Shown: positions 55,697 through 64,000 of the stretch, one piece after another
How the letters are laid out: each line of letters opens with the position of its first letter
Position numbering within the stretch: position 1 is the stretch's first letter
NCBI RefSeq assembly: GCF_022808935.1
Contig: NZ_JAKZFR010000001.1
Span: 682,001 to 746,000, forward strand
Origin: Geothrix sp. SG200
Lineage (GTDB): Bacteria > Acidobacteriota > Holophagae > Holophagales > Holophagaceae
Reading direction: 5' to 3'
Length of the DNA: 64,000 bases
Translations under genes and position numbers: made by a program
Notes under the pieces: model-generated
Told to the model about the DNA's origin: nothing
Database searches by the model: none
What the model saw: only the letters and a program-made list of their open reading frames with translations

Positions 55697-58687
55697 ATGT
55701 TTCGCCGCTTCGCGCTCGCCCTTCTGGCCCTCCTCCCGCTGTGCGCCCAGGAGCGGCTGCCCATGCCGCAGATCCGCATCCAGGAAGGGGACCGATCCGT
55801 GCCCGCCCGGATCCACGATCTGAGGATCGATGTGAAAGTTGTGGGCCATGTCGCCACGACCACCTGGGACCTGACCATCCACAACCCGCAGACCCGAGTG
55901 CTGGAGGGCGAGCTGGTCTTCCCCCTCGGCGAGGGCCAGACCGTCTCCCGCTTCGCCATGGATGTGAACGGGCGGCTCCGCGAGGGCGTGGTGGTGGAGA
56001 AGGCCAAGGGCCGCCGGGCCTTCGAGGAGATCGTCCGCCGGGGCGTGGATCCCGGCCTGCTCGAGAAGACGGTGGGCAACAGCTTCAAGGCGCGGGTGTA
56101 TCCCATTCCCGCCCGGGGGTACAAGCGGGTGGTCCTGGCCTACGAGCAGGAGCTGGCGGACAGCGGGCCCGGAGAGCTGCTCTACCGGCTGCCCCTGGCC
56201 TTCACGGACAAGGTGGCCACCTTCGGCCTGAAGGTGGAGGTCCTGGACCAGCCGGTGGCGCCCCGGGCCACGGCCAGCCCCCTGGCCAATTTCCCGTTCA
56301 AGTCCGTGCGCCGGGGCTACCTCGCGGAGGAGGTGCGGAGCGACTTCCTGCCGGACCAACCCCTCGTGATGTCCATCCCGCGGGCCTCCGACAGCGGGCA
56401 GGTGTTCGTGGAGCGCCGGGACGGGCAGGACTTCTTCTTCGTGATGGTGCACCCGCGGATGGCCCGGGAGGCGAAGCCCCTTCCCCGGCGCCTGCTGGTG
56501 GTGTGGGACGCCTCGGCCAGCGCCCGGAACCGCGACCTGGCCCGGGAGCTGGGCCTGCTGGAGGCCTACCTTCGGCGCCTGGGCACCTGCGAGGTGAACC
56601 TCTCCGTCTTCCGTGACGCGGCCGAGCCCCTGAAGGCCTTCCGGATCCAGGACGGGAATGCCGCCGGCCTGATCGCCCACCTCAAGAACCTGCCGCTGGA
56701 CGGCGGGACCTGCCTGGGCGCCGTGAAGCTGAAGGACCTGCGGGTGGACGAGACCCTGCTGTTCTCCGATGGCCTGGGCACCTTCGGCCCCCGCGAGGCC
56801 CAGTTCCCTGAGGCCCCCCTGGTGGCGGTCAACAGCGCGCTGACGGCCGAGCACGCCCTCCTGCGGGCCCTCGGCGAAGGGCAGGGCGGCGAGTACCTCA
56901 ACCTCCAGAACCTCAGCGCGGAGGAGGCCCTGAAGGCCCTCACCACCCGGCCCCTGGCCTTCCTCCGGGCGGTCACCGAGCGTGGCGAAGTGGCGGAGGT
57001 CTATCCTGGCGCGGGGCGGGTGGTCCGGGGGCCCTTCGGGCTGGCGGGCCTCCTCAAGACCCCGCGCGCCCGGCTCACCCTCCAGTTCGGGTTCGGCCGC
57101 AGCGTCCGGGTGACTCGGACCTTCGACCTCGATGCGGCCAAGGCCGCCGAAGCGGCGCCCGTGGCGCGGATGTGGGCCCAGCGGAAGCTCGCTGAACTGG
57201 AGCTGGATCCGGCCCGGAACGCCAAGGCCATCCTCGCCCTCGGCCAGGCCCACGGCCTCGTCACCGAAGGCACGAGCCTGATCGTGCTCGACGACGTGGC
57301 CGACTATGTGCGCTACCGGATCGCCCCGCCGGAGGATCTCCGGGCCGAGTACGACCGCCGTGTGGCCGACGAGACCCAGCATGCAGGTACGCGGGAGAAG
57401 GACCACCTCGAGGCGCTGGTGAAGCAGTTCGAGGAGCGGAAAGCCTGGTGGGCCACCGAGTTCAAGGTGCCGCCCAAGCCCCGGCCTTCGTCCACGGAAC
57501 CTCCGCCACCTGGCGCCCCTGGCGGCGTCCCCGGCGGTGTGATCGGCGGGGTCGTGGGGGGCGTCGTCGGCGGCACCGTGCGCCGCGAGGATGGACCGCC
57601 ACCTCCGCCGCCCCCGCCCCCGCCCCCGGGGGCGGGTCGGACCCAGCGGAATCGCCCACCCGCCCAGGCCGTGGTGGAGGTGGTGGCGTCGGTGCCTGTT
57701 TCAGATCGGACCGAGGTCAACACGGCCGCGAACCTCTCGCCCGGTGTGACCGAAGGGATGGAGTCGGCCGCCATGGGGACCATCGACCTCAAGCCCTGGT
57801 CGCCCGACACGCCCTACCTGAAGGAACTGAAGGCCGCCCCGGCCAAGGACCGCTACACCCTCTACCTCCGGCAGCGGGAGACCTACGGGAAGACGCCGGG
57901 CTTCTTCCTCGACGTCTCCGACTTCTTCCGGGACCAGGGCGAGAAGGACCTGGCCCTGCGCATCCTCTCCAACCTGGCGGAGCTCAAGCTGGAGAGCGCC
58001 CCCCTGCTGCGGATCCTGGGCTACCGTCTCCGCCAGCTGGGTCTGCCGGACCTGGCGGTGTGGACCTTCGGCGAGGTGCTGCGGATCCGGGAGGAGGAGC
58101 CCCAGAGCCGGAGGGACCTGGCCCTGGCCCTGGTCGAGGCCAGGCAGCCCCAGAAGGCCGTGGGCCTCTTCTGGGAGCTGGTGAAGACGCCCTGGGACGG
58201 GCGGTTCCATGAGGTGAACCTCATCGCCCTCGGTGAGCTCAATGCCCTCCTGGCGACCTCGAACACCAAGCTCGACGCCTCGGCCATCGATCCCCGCCTG
58301 GTGGCGAACCTGCCCGTGGATGTGCGCGTGGTGCTGAACTGGGACACGGACAACAGCGACATGGACCTGCACGTGGTGGATCCCCGGGGCGAGGAGTGCT
58401 TCTACGGCCACAACCGGACCGCCATCGGGGGTCGCATCAGCCAGGACGTGACCGCCGGCTACGGACCGGAGGAGTTCCTCCTGCGCCGCGCCCTTCCAGG
58501 CGCTTACTCGGTCAGGGCCCGGTTCTACGGCACCCGCGAGCAGACCGCCATCGGCGCCACGACGGTGACCCTGGAGCTGTACCTCCGCTACGGGACGGGG
58601 CGGGTCGAGAACAAGTCGATCACCCTGCGCCTGGAGGGTCCGGGCCGCACCGTGGACATCGGGACCTTCCGGTTCGAGGGGGACTGA
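55697..58687 (+). CDS. Secreted VIT/vWA-like protein with Pro/Gly linker, helical repeats and DUF2135
   Basis: A 996-residue exported protein. After the signal peptide (LALLALLPLCAQ) a VIT domain spans about 30-150, and a von Willebrand A-like domain follows at about 265-400 with DASAS as a partial metal-site motif. The linker at about 590-650 has GGVPGGVIGGVVGGVVGG and a run of 11 prolines, like the TonB linker in this window. Residues about 650-680 (VVEVVASVPVSDRTEVNT) look like the start of a TonB-receptor plug. A TPR-like helical part (about 700-850) and a DUF2135 domain (about 875-996, NWDTDNSDMDLHVVDP) follow. The role may be surface adhesion or complex assembly. Confidence 0.8.
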   Translation: MFRRFALALLALLPLCAQERLPMPQIRIQEGDRSVPARIHDLRIDVKVVGHVATTTWDLTIHNPQTRVLEGELVFPLGEGQTVSRFAMDVNGRLREGVVVEKAKGRRAFEEIVRRGVDPGLLEKTVGNSFKARVYPIPARGYKRVVLAYEQELADSGPGELLYRLPLAFTDKVATFGLKVEVLDQPVAPRATASPLANFPFKSVRRGYLAEEVRSDFLPDQPLVMSIPRASDSGQVFVERRDGQDFFFVMVHPRMAREAKPLPRRLLVVWDASASARNRDLARELGLLEAYLRRLGTCEVNLSVFRDAAEPLKAFRIQDGNAAGLIAHLKNLPLDGGTCLGAVKLKDLRVDETLLFSDGLGTFGPREAQFPEAPLVAVNSALTAEHALLRALGEGQGGEYLNLQNLSAEEALKALTTRPLAFLRAVTERGEVAEVYPGAGRVVRGPFGLAGLLKTPRARLTLQFGFGRSVRVTRTFDLDAAKAAEAAPVARMWAQRKLAELELDPARNAKAILALGQAHGLVTEGTSLIVLDDVADYVRYRIAPPEDLRAEYDRRVADETQHAGTREKDHLEALVKQFEERKAWWATEFKVPPKPRPSSTEPPPPGAPGGVPGGVIGGVVGGVVGGTVRREDGPPPPPPPPPPPGAGRTQRNRPPAQAVVEVVASVPVSDRTEVNTAANLSPGVTEGMESAAMGTIDLKPWSPDTPYLKELKAAPAKDRYTLYLRQRETYGKTPGFFLDVSDFFRDQGEKDLALRILSNLAELKLESAPLLRILGYRLRQLGLPDLAVWTFGEVLRIREEEPQSRRDLALALVEARQPQKAVGLFWELVKTPWDGRFHEVNLIALGELNALLATSNTKLDASAIDPRLVANLPVDVRVVLNWDTDNSDMDLHVVDPRGEECFYGHNRTAIGGRISQDVTAGYGPEEFLLRRALPGAYSVRARFYGTREQTAIGATTVTLELYLRYGTGRVENKSITLRLEGPGRTVDIGTFRFEGD

Positions 58688-59412: not shown

Positions 59413-60369
59413 ATGGCCCGTCCCACCGATCGCCCCAACCGCGTCGAGCACGCCTACGAGCTGGTGGGCTACACGCCCGTCGTGCGCCTGAACCGCCTCG
59501 TGCCCAAGGGCTCGGCCAAGGTCTACGTGAAGCTCGAGAGCGCCAACCCCGGCGGCAGCGTGAAGGACCGCATCGCCCTCAGCATGATCCAGGACGCGGA
59601 GGCCCGCGGCGCGCTGAAGCCCGGCATGACCCTGCTGGAAGCCACCAGCGGCAACACCGGCATCGGCTTGGCCTTCGTGGCGGCGGCCAAGGGCTACAAG
59701 ATCACGCTGGTGATGCCCGACACGATGACGCAGGAGCGCCGTTCCCTGCTGAAGGCCTACGGCGCGGAGCTGCTGCTGACGCCGGGTTCCGGCGGCATGA
59801 AGGCCGCCGTGGACAAGGCCCAGGAGCTGGCGGACGGCGACCCCTCCTACTTCCTGGTGCGCCAGTTCGAGAATCCGGCCAACCCCGCCGTCCACCGCCG
59901 CACCACCGCCCTGGAAGTGCTGGAGCAGGTGCCCGAGCTGGACGCCTTCGTGGCGGGCGTGGGCACCGGCGGCACCGTGACCGGCGTGGGCGAGGTGCTG
60001 GCCGAGAAGAAGCCCGGCACCCTGGTGGTGGCCGTGGAGCCCGAGACGTCGCCCCTGCTCAGCGAGGGGAAGGCCGGCCCGCACAAGCTCCAGGGCCTGG
60101 GGCCGAACTTCGTGCCCGGCATCCTGAACCGGAAGGCCTTCCAGCGCGTCCGCCCCGTGGGCTACGACGACGCCATCGCCATCGCCCGCCGCCTGGCCAG
60201 GGAGGAAGGCCTGCTCACGGGCATCAGCACCGGTGCCATCGTCTTCGCGGCCCTGGAGGTGGCGAAGGAGCTGGGCGAGGGGAAGACCGTGGTGGCCGTG
60301 CTCTGCGATACCGGCGAGCGCTACCTCACCCATCCGCTCTTCGCCGAGATCGATGGACCCGCGATCTGA
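59413..60369 (+). CDS. cysK: Cysteine synthase (O-acetylserine sulfhydrylase)
   Basis: A 318-residue PLP-dependent enzyme that makes cysteine from O-acetylserine and sulfide. K51 in NPGGSVKDR binds PLP. The substrate loop TSGNTGIGLA, the phosphate-binding GTGGTVTGVG and the C-terminal CDTGERYLTHPLF are all typical of CysK rather than cystathionine synthase. AGGAGG lies upstream of the ATG. It diverges from the Rrf2 regulator gene and is followed nine bases later by a DUF4395 gene. Confidence 0.95.
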   Translation: MARPTDRPNRVEHAYELVGYTPVVRLNRLVPKGSAKVYVKLESANPGGSVKDRIALSMIQDAEARGALKPGMTLLEATSGNTGIGLAFVAAAKGYKITLVMPDTMTQERRSLLKAYGAELLLTPGSGGMKAAVDKAQELADGDPSYFLVRQFENPANPAVHRRTTALEVLEQVPELDAFVAGVGTGGTVTGVGEVLAEKKPGTLVVAVEPETSPLLSEGKAGPHKLQGLGPNFVPGILNRKAFQRVRPVGYDDAIAIARRLAREEGLLTGISTGAIVFAALEVAKELGEGKTVVAVLCDTGERYLTHPLFAEIDGPAI

Positions 60370-61585: not shown

Positions 61586-62374
61586 ATGATGGCTTTCCTA
61601 GCGCGGATTGGCGCGCCGGCGCGCGGCTTCCTGGAGTTCCTGGGCGACCAGGCGCACCTGGTATGGCGGACCCTGCGTTCCGGGCTGGCGCTCCGGGCCG
61701 GCCAGCTGGCCGTGGTGGGCGGGCAGACGAAGCTCCAGATCCGCTTCACGGGTCTCGATGCCGGGGTGCTCGTGGCGGGCACGGCGCTGCTGCTTGGCGC
61801 GGTGACGCTCATCCAGGCCTTCAGCCAGCTCTCCGGACTGGGGGCGGAGAACTACATCGGCACGCTCATGGTGCTCATCATCCTGCGGGAACTGGGCCCG
61901 CTGCTGACCGCCGTGCTGGTCATCGGCCGGAGCGCCACGGCCATCGCGGCCGAGCTGGGAACCATGCAGCTCAACGGAGAGGTCGACGCGCTCGCCGCCC
62001 ACGGGGTGGACCCCTACCGCTACCTGCTCCTGCCCCGCTGGGTGGGCGTGCTCGTGGCAGTCTTCGCCCTGGTGGTGTGCTTCGACGCGGCGGCCCTCGG
62101 GGGGGGCTTCCTGGTGGCGCGGCTGAAATACGGAATCACCTGGGGCTTCTTCATGGAGTCCGTGCGACAAGCGCTGTCAAATCTGGATTTCACGGCCACC
62201 CTTCTGAAGGTCTTCTTCTTCTCGGGCGCCATCACCTTCCACGCCTGCCACTTCGGCCTTGGCGTCCGGCGCAGCCAGACCGAGGTTCCCCAGGCCGTCA
62301 CGAGGACGGTGGTCTCCGCCCTGGTGGCCGTGTTCGTCGTCGACGGCCTCCTGGCCGCATGCTTCTACTTCTGA
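61586..62374 (+). CDS. mlaE: MlaE-family ABC permease of an MCE transporter
   Basis: A 262-residue permease with about five to six helices and the MlaE core (LRELGPLLTAVLVIGRSATAIAAELGTMQ). The following cytoplasmic loop has EVDALAAHGVDPYRYLLLPRW. With an ATPase and an MCE-domain protein such permeases move phospholipids between the membranes of diderms. An ATG two bases from a second ATG starts the gene; the ribosome site is weak. The stop overlaps the next gene (TGATG). Confidence 0.92.
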   Translation: MMAFLARIGAPARGFLEFLGDQAHLVWRTLRSGLALRAGQLAVVGGQTKLQIRFTGLDAGVLVAGTALLLGAVTLIQAFSQLSGLGAENYIGTLMVLIILRELGPLLTAVLVIGRSATAIAAELGTMQLNGEVDALAAHGVDPYRYLLLPRWVGVLVAVFALVVCFDAAALGGGFLVARLKYGITWGFFMESVRQALSNLDFTATLLKVFFFSGAITFHACHFGLGVRRSQTEVPQAVTRTVVSALVAVFVVDGLLAACFYF

Positions 62375-63039
62375 TGCTCCAGGTCCGCGGTCTCGCCTGC
62401 GCTCTCCCTGATGGCCGGCCTCTGGTGGAGGGACTGGACCTGGACCTCTCGCCGGGTCAGAACCTCCTGGTGGCGGGCGCAGACGGAATGGGAAGGGGCC
62501 ACCTGCTGAAGGTGCTTGCCGGCACAGAGCGTCCCAGGGCTGGCGAGGTGGCGGTCGCGGGCATCCCTGTCTGGCCAGGGGAGGGCGCCCTCGGACTGGC
62601 GGGGCGGGTCCGCATGGGGTTCGCCTTCCCCACCGGCGGGCTGCTGTCGAACCTCAGCCTGGCGGACAATGTGGCCCTCCCGCTGAGGTTCCTGGGACTC
62701 TCCCGAGGGGAGGTCGCCCGCCGGACTGGAGAAGCTCTGACGCGGCTGGGGCTGGAGCCGGTGGCGAACCTCCGCCCCCATGCGGTGAGCGCGGCGGCGC
62801 GGAAGCATGCCAACCTGGCTCGGGTGCTGGCTCTGGGCCCGGAGCTGATCTTCCTGGACGCGCCCCTGGAGGGACTGGACGCCACCGATCGCAGCCTGGC
62901 CCTCGGCCTCATCTCAGGCTGGGCCCTGGATTCCGGTTGCACCCTCGTCCTGGCCACGGAGGGGGCGGACCTGCCGCCAGGGCCGGACTTCCAGACGCTG
63001 GATCTCCGCGCACACCACTCGCCTTCGGAGCCGTCATGA
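62374..63039 (+). CDS. Degenerate ABC ATPase of the MCE transporter
   Basis: A 221-residue ABC-fold protein in the MlaF position, but all its nucleotide-handling motifs are altered. The P-loop reads AGADGMGRGHLLK instead of GxSGxGKST, so lysine and both serine/threonine are gone. The signature region reads VSAAARKHANLARVLA, without LSGGQ. Walker B is LIFLDAPLEGLD, with alanine in place of the catalytic glutamate. The reading frame is intact and keeps the ABC scaffold. The start at 62374 overlaps the permease stop; an ATG at 62359 is also possible. It is either a structural pseudo-ATPase or a partner for an active ATPase encoded elsewhere. Confidence 0.85.
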   Translation: MLQVRGLACALPDGRPLVEGLDLDLSPGQNLLVAGADGMGRGHLLKVLAGTERPRAGEVAVAGIPVWPGEGALGLAGRVRMGFAFPTGGLLSNLSLADNVALPLRFLGLSRGEVARRTGEALTRLGLEPVANLRPHAVSAAARKHANLARVLALGPELIFLDAPLEGLDATDRSLALGLISGWALDSGCTLVLATEGADLPPGPDFQTLDLRAHHSPSEPS

Positions 63040-64000
63040 ACTTCGAGAAACAGGACGCCCGCCTGGGCCTCTTCGTCCTCCTGGCGCTGGGCTTCTTCGG
63101 GGGGCTGCTGGCCTACAAGAACGCCGCGGTGGTGACCGAGAAGACCTACCCGCTGGTGGTGCGGCTGGAACAGATGGAGGGGTTGGCCCCCGGCACCGAC
63201 GTTCAGCTGAAGGGCTATCGCGTGGGATCCGTGGAGCGGGTGGACATGCGGCGAGAGGGCACGGACTACCACTTCCTGGCGACCTTGGCCGTGCGCTCGG
63301 ACATCCAGCTGTGGCGCGGCACCCGGGCGGTGGTGGCCCCCAGGGGCGTGGGCAGCGTGATGCTGGACCTGCGCCTGCCGCCGTCAGACATGCGCACGGT
63401 GCCCCTGGTGCCGGGCGACCGGATCCCAGGCGAGGAGGGGGTCTCCCTGGGCGGCGTGCTGGAGCGGGCGGACCGTCTCCTGGCCAGCCTGAACACCTCG
63501 CTGGAGGCGGTGCGCGATCGCATCCAGACGAAGGGGCTGGGCGACCTGCTGGAGCATCCTTCCGTGGCCCGGGCCCTGCGATCGCTGGATGCCACCCTGC
63601 GCGAATTCCAGGCCCTGGCCAGGGATGGCCGCGGACTGGCCGCCCATGCGGACCGCAGCATGGGAGAGGCCGACAAGGCCCTCGCCGACCTGGAGAAGAG
63701 CCTGGCGGTGACCCGCGCCCTCCTCGAGACGCGCGCGCCGGACTTGGATCGGATCCTCGTGAGCCTGGCGTCGGTGCTGCAGCAGTCGGATGGGCTGCTG
63801 GCCCGGTTCCGGGCCGAGGACCAGCCGGAGCTGGAGGCCAGCCTCAAGGCGCTGCGGCGCTCCCTGGATTCCGTGGAGGAACTGCTGCAGCTGTTGAAGC
63901 AGAAGCCCAGCCGGGCCGTGTGGGGCACCCCCAGCGATGCGGAACGGACCCGGGCCCGACAGGCGGCGGAAGCCGCCAAGGCCGCGCCGGCGCCGAAGTA
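63036..64000 (+). CDS. mlaD: MCE-domain (MlaD-like) substrate-binding protein, cut by the window end
   Basis: The frame runs 321 codons from the ATG at 63036 and ends at the first two bases (TA) of what is probably its stop codon. One N-terminal helix (about residues 10-27, LGLFVLLALGFFGGLLAY) is followed by an MCE domain (about 38-118) with LAPGTDVQLKGYRVGSV and GVGSVMLDLRLPP. The rest is a long helical tail (about 150-290) with heptad-like leucines and an alanine-rich end. MCE rings with helical tails bind and pass lipids across the periplasm. The start overlaps the ATPase gene stop by four bases (ATGA). Confidence 0.9.
   Translation, partial: MNFEKQDARLGLFVLLALGFFGGLLAYKNAAVVTEKTYPLVVRLEQMEGLAPGTDVQLKGYRVGSVERVDMRREGTDYHFLATLAVRSDIQLWRGTRAVVAPRGVGSVMLDLRLPPSDMRTVPLVPGDRIPGEEGVSLGGVLERADRLLASLNTSLEAVRDRIQTKGLGDLLEHPSVARALRSLDATLREFQALARDGRGLAAHADRSMGEADKALADLEKSLAVTRALLETRAPDLDRILVSLASVLQQSDGLLARFRAEDQPELEASLKALRRSLDSVEELLQLLKQKPSRAVWGTPSDAERTRARQAAEAAKAAPAPK

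Follow-up and report, generated by a model that had tools for sequence, protein, structure and literature searches.

Can a lipid transporter built from a permease, an ATP-binding cassette (ABC) subunit and an MCE protein be kept by a bacterial lineage when the ABC subunit no longer carries the residues with which ATP is hydrolysed? The locus that raises this question lies at the end of a stretch of 64,000 nucleotides from the soil bacterium Geothrix sp. SG200 (contig NZ_JAKZFR010000001.1, positions 682,001 to 746,000, forward strand), which was analysed as a whole and is referred to here as the window. It encodes a permease, MlaE2, an ABC subunit and an MCE protein, MCE2; the ABC subunit is called MlaF2 by its position beside MlaE2, and the genome's canonical ABC subunit is called MlaF1. 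Our answer, to which we lean with only a little more confidence than doubt, is that MlaF2 has been conserved as a pseudo-ATPase, which acts as a clamp on the permease of an MlaEFD-like lipid system, and that this system works without hydrolysing ATP itself. In other words, to judge from their sequences, the transporters of this branch probably move lipids with no ATP burnt by their own motor.

Motif losses and predicted fold of MlaF2

The mlaF2 frame (62374-63039, plus strand) translates without a break into 221 amino acids and shares bases with both of its neighbours, the stop of mlaE2 and the start of mlaF2 forming TGATG, and the stop of mlaF2 and the start of mce2 forming ATGA. Together with these overlaps, the adjacent Pfam matches to PF02405 (203 bits, cut-off 22.5), PF00005 (51.5 bits) and PF02470 (42.5 bits) identify a gene set of the MlaEFD type, and no second ABC gene is encoded in the operon. 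A first-pass annotation, made from the DNA alone, had described an intact ABC frame between an MlaE permease and an MCE gene, and this description stands. The three genes, and the altered positions within mlaF2, are the following.

61586..62374, plus strand: mlaE2, permease subunit, 262 amino acids (Pfam PF02405, 203 bits; separate MlaE2 branch in the permease tree)
62374..63039, plus strand: mlaF2, degenerate ABC subunit in the mlaF position, 221 amino acids, the main finding (translation, Pfam, AlphaFold2, motif tally)
62476..62502, plus strand: degenerate Walker A, GADGMGRGH, residues 35-43, with R41 for Lys and G42 for Ser/Thr (translation, alignment with MlaF1)
62629..62631, plus strand: Q-loop position, Pro86 for Gln (alignment with MlaF1)
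62785..62799, plus strand: signature position, VSAAA for LSGG[Q/M], residues 138-142 (alignment, tally)
62857..62865, plus strand: end of Walker B, D162-A163-P164, with Ala for the catalytic Glu (alignment, tally)
62959..62961, plus strand: H-loop position, Glu196 for the switch His (alignment, tally)
63036..64000, plus strand: mce2, MlaD/MCE protein, 321 amino acids (Pfam PF02470, 42.5 bits; its stop codon ends 1 base past the window, L005:3037-4002)

The motifs were read from an alignment with MlaF1 of the same genome, L032 being left out of that alignment. MlaF1 has them all intact (GGSGTGKT, FQ, LSGGM, FDEP, THD), whereas MlaF2 fails each sequence mark of a working ABC ATPase that was tested (Walker A GxxGxGK[S/T], LSGGQ, Glu, Gln, His). 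Namely, the Walker A lysine, the Q-loop glutamine, the GG of the signature, the catalytic glutamate and the switch histidine are gone. Three of these losses, those of the lysine, the signature and the Walker B glutamate (LDAP), had been named in the first-pass annotation, and both the translation and the alignment agree with it; the Q-loop and H-loop replacements come on top of them.

The fold appears to be retained all the same, as that annotation had also proposed. The Pfam ABC_tran match (PF00005) lies well above its cut-off of 25 bits and places MlaF2 in the ABC superfamily, and the AlphaFold2 model of the window's MlaF2 is an ABC fold with a pLDDT of 90.6. Its best structural match is 2r6g (Z 25.1, root-mean-square deviation (rmsd) 2.3, 210 residues aligned), and it matches the MlaF structures 6xgz (Z 23.6, rmsd 2.9, 213 aligned) and 6xbd (Z 22.8, rmsd 2.8, 213 aligned). 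Five of six other MlaF2 proteins scanned pass ABC_tran. The sixth, the diverged protein of locus L137, is without a Pfam match at E 0.001, and it too is modelled as an ABC fold (pLDDT 90.1), matched best by 9ge8 (Z 23.3, rmsd 2.7, 213 aligned), with the MlaF of 7ch7 tied (Z 22.9, rmsd 2.9, 219 aligned).

Two trivial explanations were ruled out. The argument that several motif losses in a kept fold speak against a sequencing error gained strength from other genomes: the same losses recur in other assemblies, and none of the 32 same-genus orthologue matches contains an internal stop, which disposes of a frameshift as well. The later motif tallies took open frames only, and a broken copy would show there merely as an absence. 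Decay of ABC motifs throughout the genome was the other candidate. In a survey of the genome's own ABC genes, 30 of 52 matches had loci and were scored, and all 30 of these other cassettes, MlaF1 included, keep GK[S/T]; looser patterns, matched automatically only, were found for the signature in 23 of them, for Walker B in 25 and for the histidine in 23.

What, then, is conserved in MlaF2? Nine positions are invariant in 28 representatives (G50, L90, N93, N99, L102, P103, P135, R150 and P164), none of them a catalytic feature, and conservation especially in MlaF2 is seen for N93 (where ordinary MlaF has Ser), L102 and P103. In ABC proteins, the residues after the Q-loop, corresponding to the stretch 90-105 of MlaF2, form the side that faces the coupling helix. 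The proteins are also short, with a median of 221 amino acids against 263 in the sampled ordinary MlaF, and the last strand of the window's model lies at residues 207-210. To judge by this length, MlaF2 is too short for the C-terminal 'handshake' extension, which E. coli MlaF requires according to PMC7367683. If MlaF2 derives from a LolD-like cassette, such a handshake may never have been present.

Distribution, selection and descent

Geothrix paludis SG195 and G. terrae SG184 carry the closest orthologues of the window's system (87 and 86% identity), and orthologues are present in 32 of 37 same-genus genomes. At E < 1e-50 none was found in the other five (G020, G026, G030, G033 and G035), which are fragmented (210-530 contigs, 71-96% complete). 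When 396 Acidobacteriota genomes were searched with MlaE2, 33 turned out to encode a close relative (E 1.3e-52 or better; the next match was at 1e-38): 26 belong to the same genus, five to the same family but to three further genera (G160; G143 and G416; G340 and G364) and two to other families (G118 and G217). Two further carriers are the metagenome-assembled genome (MAG) L070 (SZAS-17; genus unstated) and G425. Wherever the ATPase beside MlaE2 was read, in part of the 33 genomes, it is degenerate.

The two genomes reached via loci L073 and L074 have an MlaE that scores at best 6.8e-41 against the MlaE2 profile, and the cassettes beside those MlaE are canonical. L073, L074 and L075 were the weakest loci in the genome scan; L074, the one read, has two ABC cassettes, both with a Walker A GK[S/T]. 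As for spread to other phyla, the profile gave no match at 1e-60 in 398 genomes of the phylum to which a Haematobacter locus led, a set without a positive control and so uninformative; elsewhere, a member left out of the profile scored 2.4e-108. MlaE2 systems were also seen in another family of Acidobacteriota, at L142 (G217) and L202 (G425), in two of the 19 genomes of that order. In the permease tree the MlaE2 of G217 is placed with g16 and g23, two genera of the same family as Geothrix, which suggests horizontal transfer.

We then have two sets of proteins to compare, namely 49 distinct MlaF2 (40 from Geothrix and close MAGs, nine from elsewhere) and 52 distinct MlaF encoded beside ordinary MlaE, identical or contained proteins having been dropped. 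The 52 are a sample, not exhaustive, that draws on the best matches to MlaE and on the second systems which the relatives themselves encode. Three rows were left aside: L162 (no MlaF found beside its MlaE, which is counted among the 54 ordinary permeases below), L071 (contig end) and L201 (the same locus as L141). L051, on a contig without MlaE, was scored as MlaF2 type by its MlaF2 and MCE2.

The outcome is clear-cut. All five features are kept in 52 of 52 sampled ordinary MlaF, and among the 49 MlaF2 all five are lost in eight, four in 32 and three in nine. The Walker A lysine is kept in 39, the catalytic glutamate in eight, the Q-loop glutamine in three, and the signature GG and the switch histidine in none; the Walker B aspartate (47) and the signature serine (43) are also mostly kept. 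At the histidine position 43 of the 49 have a glutamate, while the position of the catalytic glutamate varies between D, E, R, A, G and L, with D in 31. The ten proteins without the Walker A lysine are those of the window, G. terrae SG184, G. paludis SG195, L048 (K to R), L136-L139, L142 and L202; in L136 (G364) and L137 (G340) the P-loop is wholly gone (TSFPHESS and LGSAAASL). Close relatives with a canonical GKS/T, LSGGQ and glutamate, which the first-pass annotation had set against its own suggestion of a pseudo-ATPase, thus did not turn up, and the suggestion gains support for the entire clade rather than for one genome, every one of the 49 proteins lacking at least three of the five features.

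A defect peculiar to the window's genome is ruled out by this tally. Of the losses, just that of Walker A is confined to the window's lineage (the window, L037 and L038), and it recurs in L048, L136-L139, L142 and L202. The losses look layered, those of the signature and the H-loop being early or repeated and that of Walker A late and in several lineages, because no MlaF2 keeps the GG or the histidine and most keep the lysine.

The gene is under selection. By the Nei-Gojobori method, the ratio of nonsynonymous to synonymous substitution rates (dN/dS) is 0.17-0.33 for MlaF2 in 11 pairs of the Geothrix group, with 0.06-0.27 for MlaE2 and 0.10-0.23 for MCE2; two more distant pairs gave 0.47 and 0.51 for MlaF2. 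Among the window's three species MlaF2 has 0.29-0.30 against 0.10-0.15 for MlaF1, and in two other genome pairs the values are 0.51 and 0.47 against 0.21 and 0.09. MlaF2 is under loose purifying selection, two to five times looser than that on MlaF1.

Where MlaF2 comes from is less clear. Its NCBIfam scores are 85.4 bits for FtsE (the best), 71.9 for LolD and 61.9 for MlaF, all far below the cut-offs shown. The best profile of MlaF1 is MlaF, at 219.5 bits; both proteins miss the equivalog cut-off of NF008809 (441), which is not decisive for MlaF2, because the canonical MlaF1 misses it too. The best solved relatives by sequence in the PDB include FbpC, FtsE and MacB, cassettes of the FtsE/LolD/MacB type ranking above MlaF. 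When 54 cassettes were placed in a tree, the 13 MlaF1 came out as a single group (100/99) and all but one of the 12 MlaF2 as a second (100/100), the exception, L141, lying nearby on a long branch; the MlaF2 group sits apart from MlaF1, among cassettes of its own genome with a LADEP motif, which we take to be LolD/MacB-like. Forcing MlaF1 and MlaF2 into a common group costs 13.2 log units, and the constrained tree is not rejected (p-AU 0.07). By these comparisons MlaF2 is at least as similar to LolD/FtsE-type cassettes as to MlaF, and it may be a cassette of another kind that was recruited to MlaE2, or a fast-evolving MlaF.

The permease and the second system of the genome

The first-pass annotation had called the permease a normal MlaE. 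As far as Pfam is concerned this holds, PF02405 being passed, while in other respects MlaE2 stands apart. In a tree of 54 permeases, a single branch (100/100) divides the 19 rows of MlaE2 type from all others, with none of the 19 falling among the ordinary ones; because the tree has no known root, its MlaE2 stem is long (2.0) and several branches were flagged for their length, 'clade' here means one side of a branch. Against NCBIfam TIGR00056 (cut-off 212.2 bits) MlaE2 scores 154, below the cut-off, and the genome's other MlaE, MlaE1, scores 249.9, above it. What is more, a motif that reads T-E-Q-I-D-A-L is changed. Position 2 is E in 47, Q in six and D in one of 54 ordinary MlaE, and G in 40, D in two, S in one and R in one of 44 MlaE2; position 3 is Q in 50 and E in four of the former, and E in all 44 of the latter. 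The coupling helix of MlaE connects TM2 and TM3 and contacts MlaF (PMC7790496), and we take the motif to be part of it, because the E-E-x-D-A loop of mycobacterial permeases has been proposed as the likely MceG-binding site (PMC9947336). On this alignment, the putative coupling helix of MlaE2 is altered relative to that of ordinary MlaE.

MlaE1 is the second of the genome's two PF02405 matches and lies, together with MlaF1, in an operon of its own, approximately 450 kb from mlaE2. A second MlaF-like gene, for which the first-pass annotation had advised a search, thus exists elsewhere in the genome in the form of the canonical MlaF1. A search of the genome with MlaF1 gave 44 matches, none of which, beyond MlaF1 itself, exceeds 38% identity, ruling out a further close MlaF paralogue. 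Each of the 28 genomes examined has a canonical MlaF1, among them the 20 with MlaE2, all of which also encode MlaE1; apart from these 20, eight genomes of the family have just one MlaE, and it is of the MlaE1 type.

As for the surroundings of the mlaE2-mlaF2-mce2 operon, a gene for a CAP-domain protein (PF00188; 60889-61542, plus strand) lies directly upstream of mlaE2 and is preceded by a cysK-like PALP gene (59413-60369). The order cysK, CAP-like gene, mlaE2, mlaF2, mce2 is also seen in L102/L140 (G160) and in MAG L070, where the CAP-like frame appears duplicated. Further upstream (55697-58687, plus strand) a 996-residue protein with VIT and DUF2135 domains (Pfam) and a proline-rich stretch is encoded. 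Just downstream of mce2 there is a gene for an OsmC-like protein (PF02566; L005:4105-4752, plus strand), followed by a minus-strand frame which we take to resemble carbamate kinase. A promoter scan of the operon region was uninformative, with no sigma-70-like site and three terminator-like sites against a mean of 1.5 in shuffles.

A putative clamp on the permease and its rivals

How might such a transporter work? MlaF2 would retain an ABC fold and remain seated on the permease while being unable to run a canonical cycle of ATP hydrolysis. Most likely it would dimerise beneath the MlaE2 dimer and grip it via the coupling helix, and MlaE2, MlaF2 and MCE2 would together form an MlaEFD-like lipid conduit with no ATP hydrolysis of its own. 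The relevant precedent is E. coli. Without ATP, the cavity of MlaE is described as open to MlaD, and transfer from MlaD to MlaC as spontaneous and prevented by ATP hydrolysis (PMC10212509). Held in the manner of that nucleotide-free complex, the conduit would give phospholipids a way down their gradient via the MCE tube, the likely course being from the inner to the outer membrane, and would work alongside the separate MlaE1-MlaF1-MCE1 system with its canonical ATPase. E. coli MlaF with either K47A or E170Q is reported not to complement (PMC7367683), and E170Q to lower ATPase activity by about 80% (PMC7784689); the window's MlaF2 lacks the residues corresponding to both K47 and E170, and others besides. 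The observed support consists of the motif loss, its conservation across the clade, the open frames under purifying selection, the predicted fold, the changed coupling helix and the canonical system in the same genomes. Formation of the complex, absence of any ATPase activity, passive flow and the direction of that flow are what we infer.

That said, several observations weigh against this interpretation. With the Walker A lysine intact in 39 of 49 MlaF2, most relatives may bind ATP, and the canonical MlaF1 of all 20 MlaE2-bearing genomes checked could serve MlaE2. Among the invariant positions, G50, L90, N99, R150 and P164 are conserved in ordinary MlaF also, and P164 is lost in L202 (outside the 28 representatives), and so these positions are not necessarily signs of a new function. 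The faster evolution of MlaF2 relative to MlaF1 fits slow decay too, and the uncertain descent of MlaF2 from MlaF may loosen the analogy with E. coli. Finally, the E. coli Mla system includes MlaC; there is no MlaA, MlaB or MlaC gene among the neighbouring genes read, and no search aimed at MlaC was made.

Some of these points can be turned into explanations of their own. The canonical MlaF1 might power MlaE2 as well, just as MceG serves Mce1 and Mce4, leaving MlaF2 as an assembly factor or a brake. Such a common MceG has been published for mycobacteria (PMC9947336), and MlaF1 is canonical in every genome examined; however, the loop proposed there as the MceG site is taken to correspond to the motif in which MlaE2 departs from its ordinary counterparts (G/D/S/R at position 2 in 44 of 44, against E/Q/D in 54 of 54), MlaF1 is encoded far away in its own operon, and mlaF2 overlaps and is conserved with both of its neighbours, which would be hard to explain had it been displaced. 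We consider this sharing unlikely. The retained lysine, signature serine and Walker B aspartate of most MlaF2 would also suit a sensor that binds ATP without hydrolysing it and gates the conduit by its occupancy, an idea to which we give a slim chance, the lysine having gone in several lineages, the window's included, with the operon kept.

A mixed dimer of one MlaF1 and one MlaF2 on MlaE2 (or on MlaE1), resembling ABC exporters with one degenerate site, has a slimmer chance still. The retained lysine could again be counted in its favour, and pairs of a degenerate and a canonical site are common, being reported for 21 of 29 human non-homodimeric ABC transporters (PMC7756269). Yet in MlaF2 the signature, the histidine, nearly always the glutamine and mostly the glutamate are lost in one chain, together with Walker A in the window's lineage, and no full site would be restored by such pairing, because one and the same chain is damaged both on its Walker A/B/H side and in its signature; neither is MlaF2 grouped with MlaF1 in the cassette tree, although a common group is not rejected. 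Least probable, in our view, is that the system is losing its function and mlaF2 is on its way to becoming a pseudogene. The raised dN/dS relative to MlaF1 in the same genome pairs, the drift of ATP-site residues and the five same-genus genomes in which no orthologue was found would agree with decay, although those genomes are the fragmented ones, no internal stop occurs in the same-genus matches, dN/dS is well below 1, and the order of the three genes is maintained across several genera and families. Of the three options that the first-pass annotation had offered, the passive transporter is thus the one we prefer; a different ATPase is possible, MlaF1 being encoded elsewhere, and half of a heterodimer is weakened by the damage to both sides of the ATP site in one chain.

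The proposed clamp can be set beside several known systems. Like MlaFEDB of E. coli, Pseudomonas and Acinetobacter (the MlaF of 6xbd, 6xgz and 7ch7), the locus combines an MlaE, an ABC subunit matching in fold and an MCE protein, but its MlaF2 is without catalytic features and without room for the handshake extension. The LolD/FtsE/MacB-type cassettes are the best NCBIfam and PDB sequence matches of MlaF2 and its neighbours in the tree; unlike them, it scores below the NCBIfam cut-offs, is encoded beside MlaE and MCE genes and has lost its catalytic features. PqiABC and LetAB are MCE lipid systems without an ABC ATPase, in which PqiA and LetA replace MlaE and MlaF, whereas here the MlaE and the ABC subunit are both kept. 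The minimal MlaEFD system of Veillonella parvula, proposed as a transenvelope bridge, is likewise a three-gene unit with overlapping mlaF and mlaD frames, its MCE protein having 419 residues against 321 here (PMC10665443). The mycobacterial Mce1 and Mce4 systems share with the present one permeases of the YrbE/MlaE type, MCE proteins and possibly the use of one ATPase in common; MceG, however, is canonical and reported to need its Walker B residues (PMC9947336), while here a pseudo-ATPase is encoded inside the operon. Transporters with one degenerate site (CFTR, TAP, ABCG5/G8, TM287/288) show losses in the signature, in Walker B (E to D) and in the H-loop (PMC7756269), but there the partner site is canonical, and here the operon encodes no canonical ATPase, MlaF1 lying elsewhere in the genome. 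Among the papers listed in literature searches, as far as titles and the openings of abstracts tell, none describes an Mla or MCE system whose ATPase is degenerate.

We know of no other case in which an importer-like ABC complex is conserved although both of its ATP sites are degenerate, and the present system would, if our interpretation is right, apparently be a new one. Taken to its full extent, the idea is that an ABC subunit, perhaps recruited from outside MlaF, has turned into a fixed scaffold that leaves the complex permanently nucleotide-free and open, an ATP-independent conduit from the inner to the outer membrane, with the return flow left to a canonical, ATP-driven Mla system of the same cell; this fuller picture is tentative, and we hold it with more doubt than belief. 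Both the direction of Mla-type transport and the route by which phospholipids reach the outer membrane are disputed. If the picture is true, a clade of MlaEFD-like transporters that has a dead motor, and is retained in cells which also possess a live one, would set the two flows apart, and the question of direction could then be tested directly.

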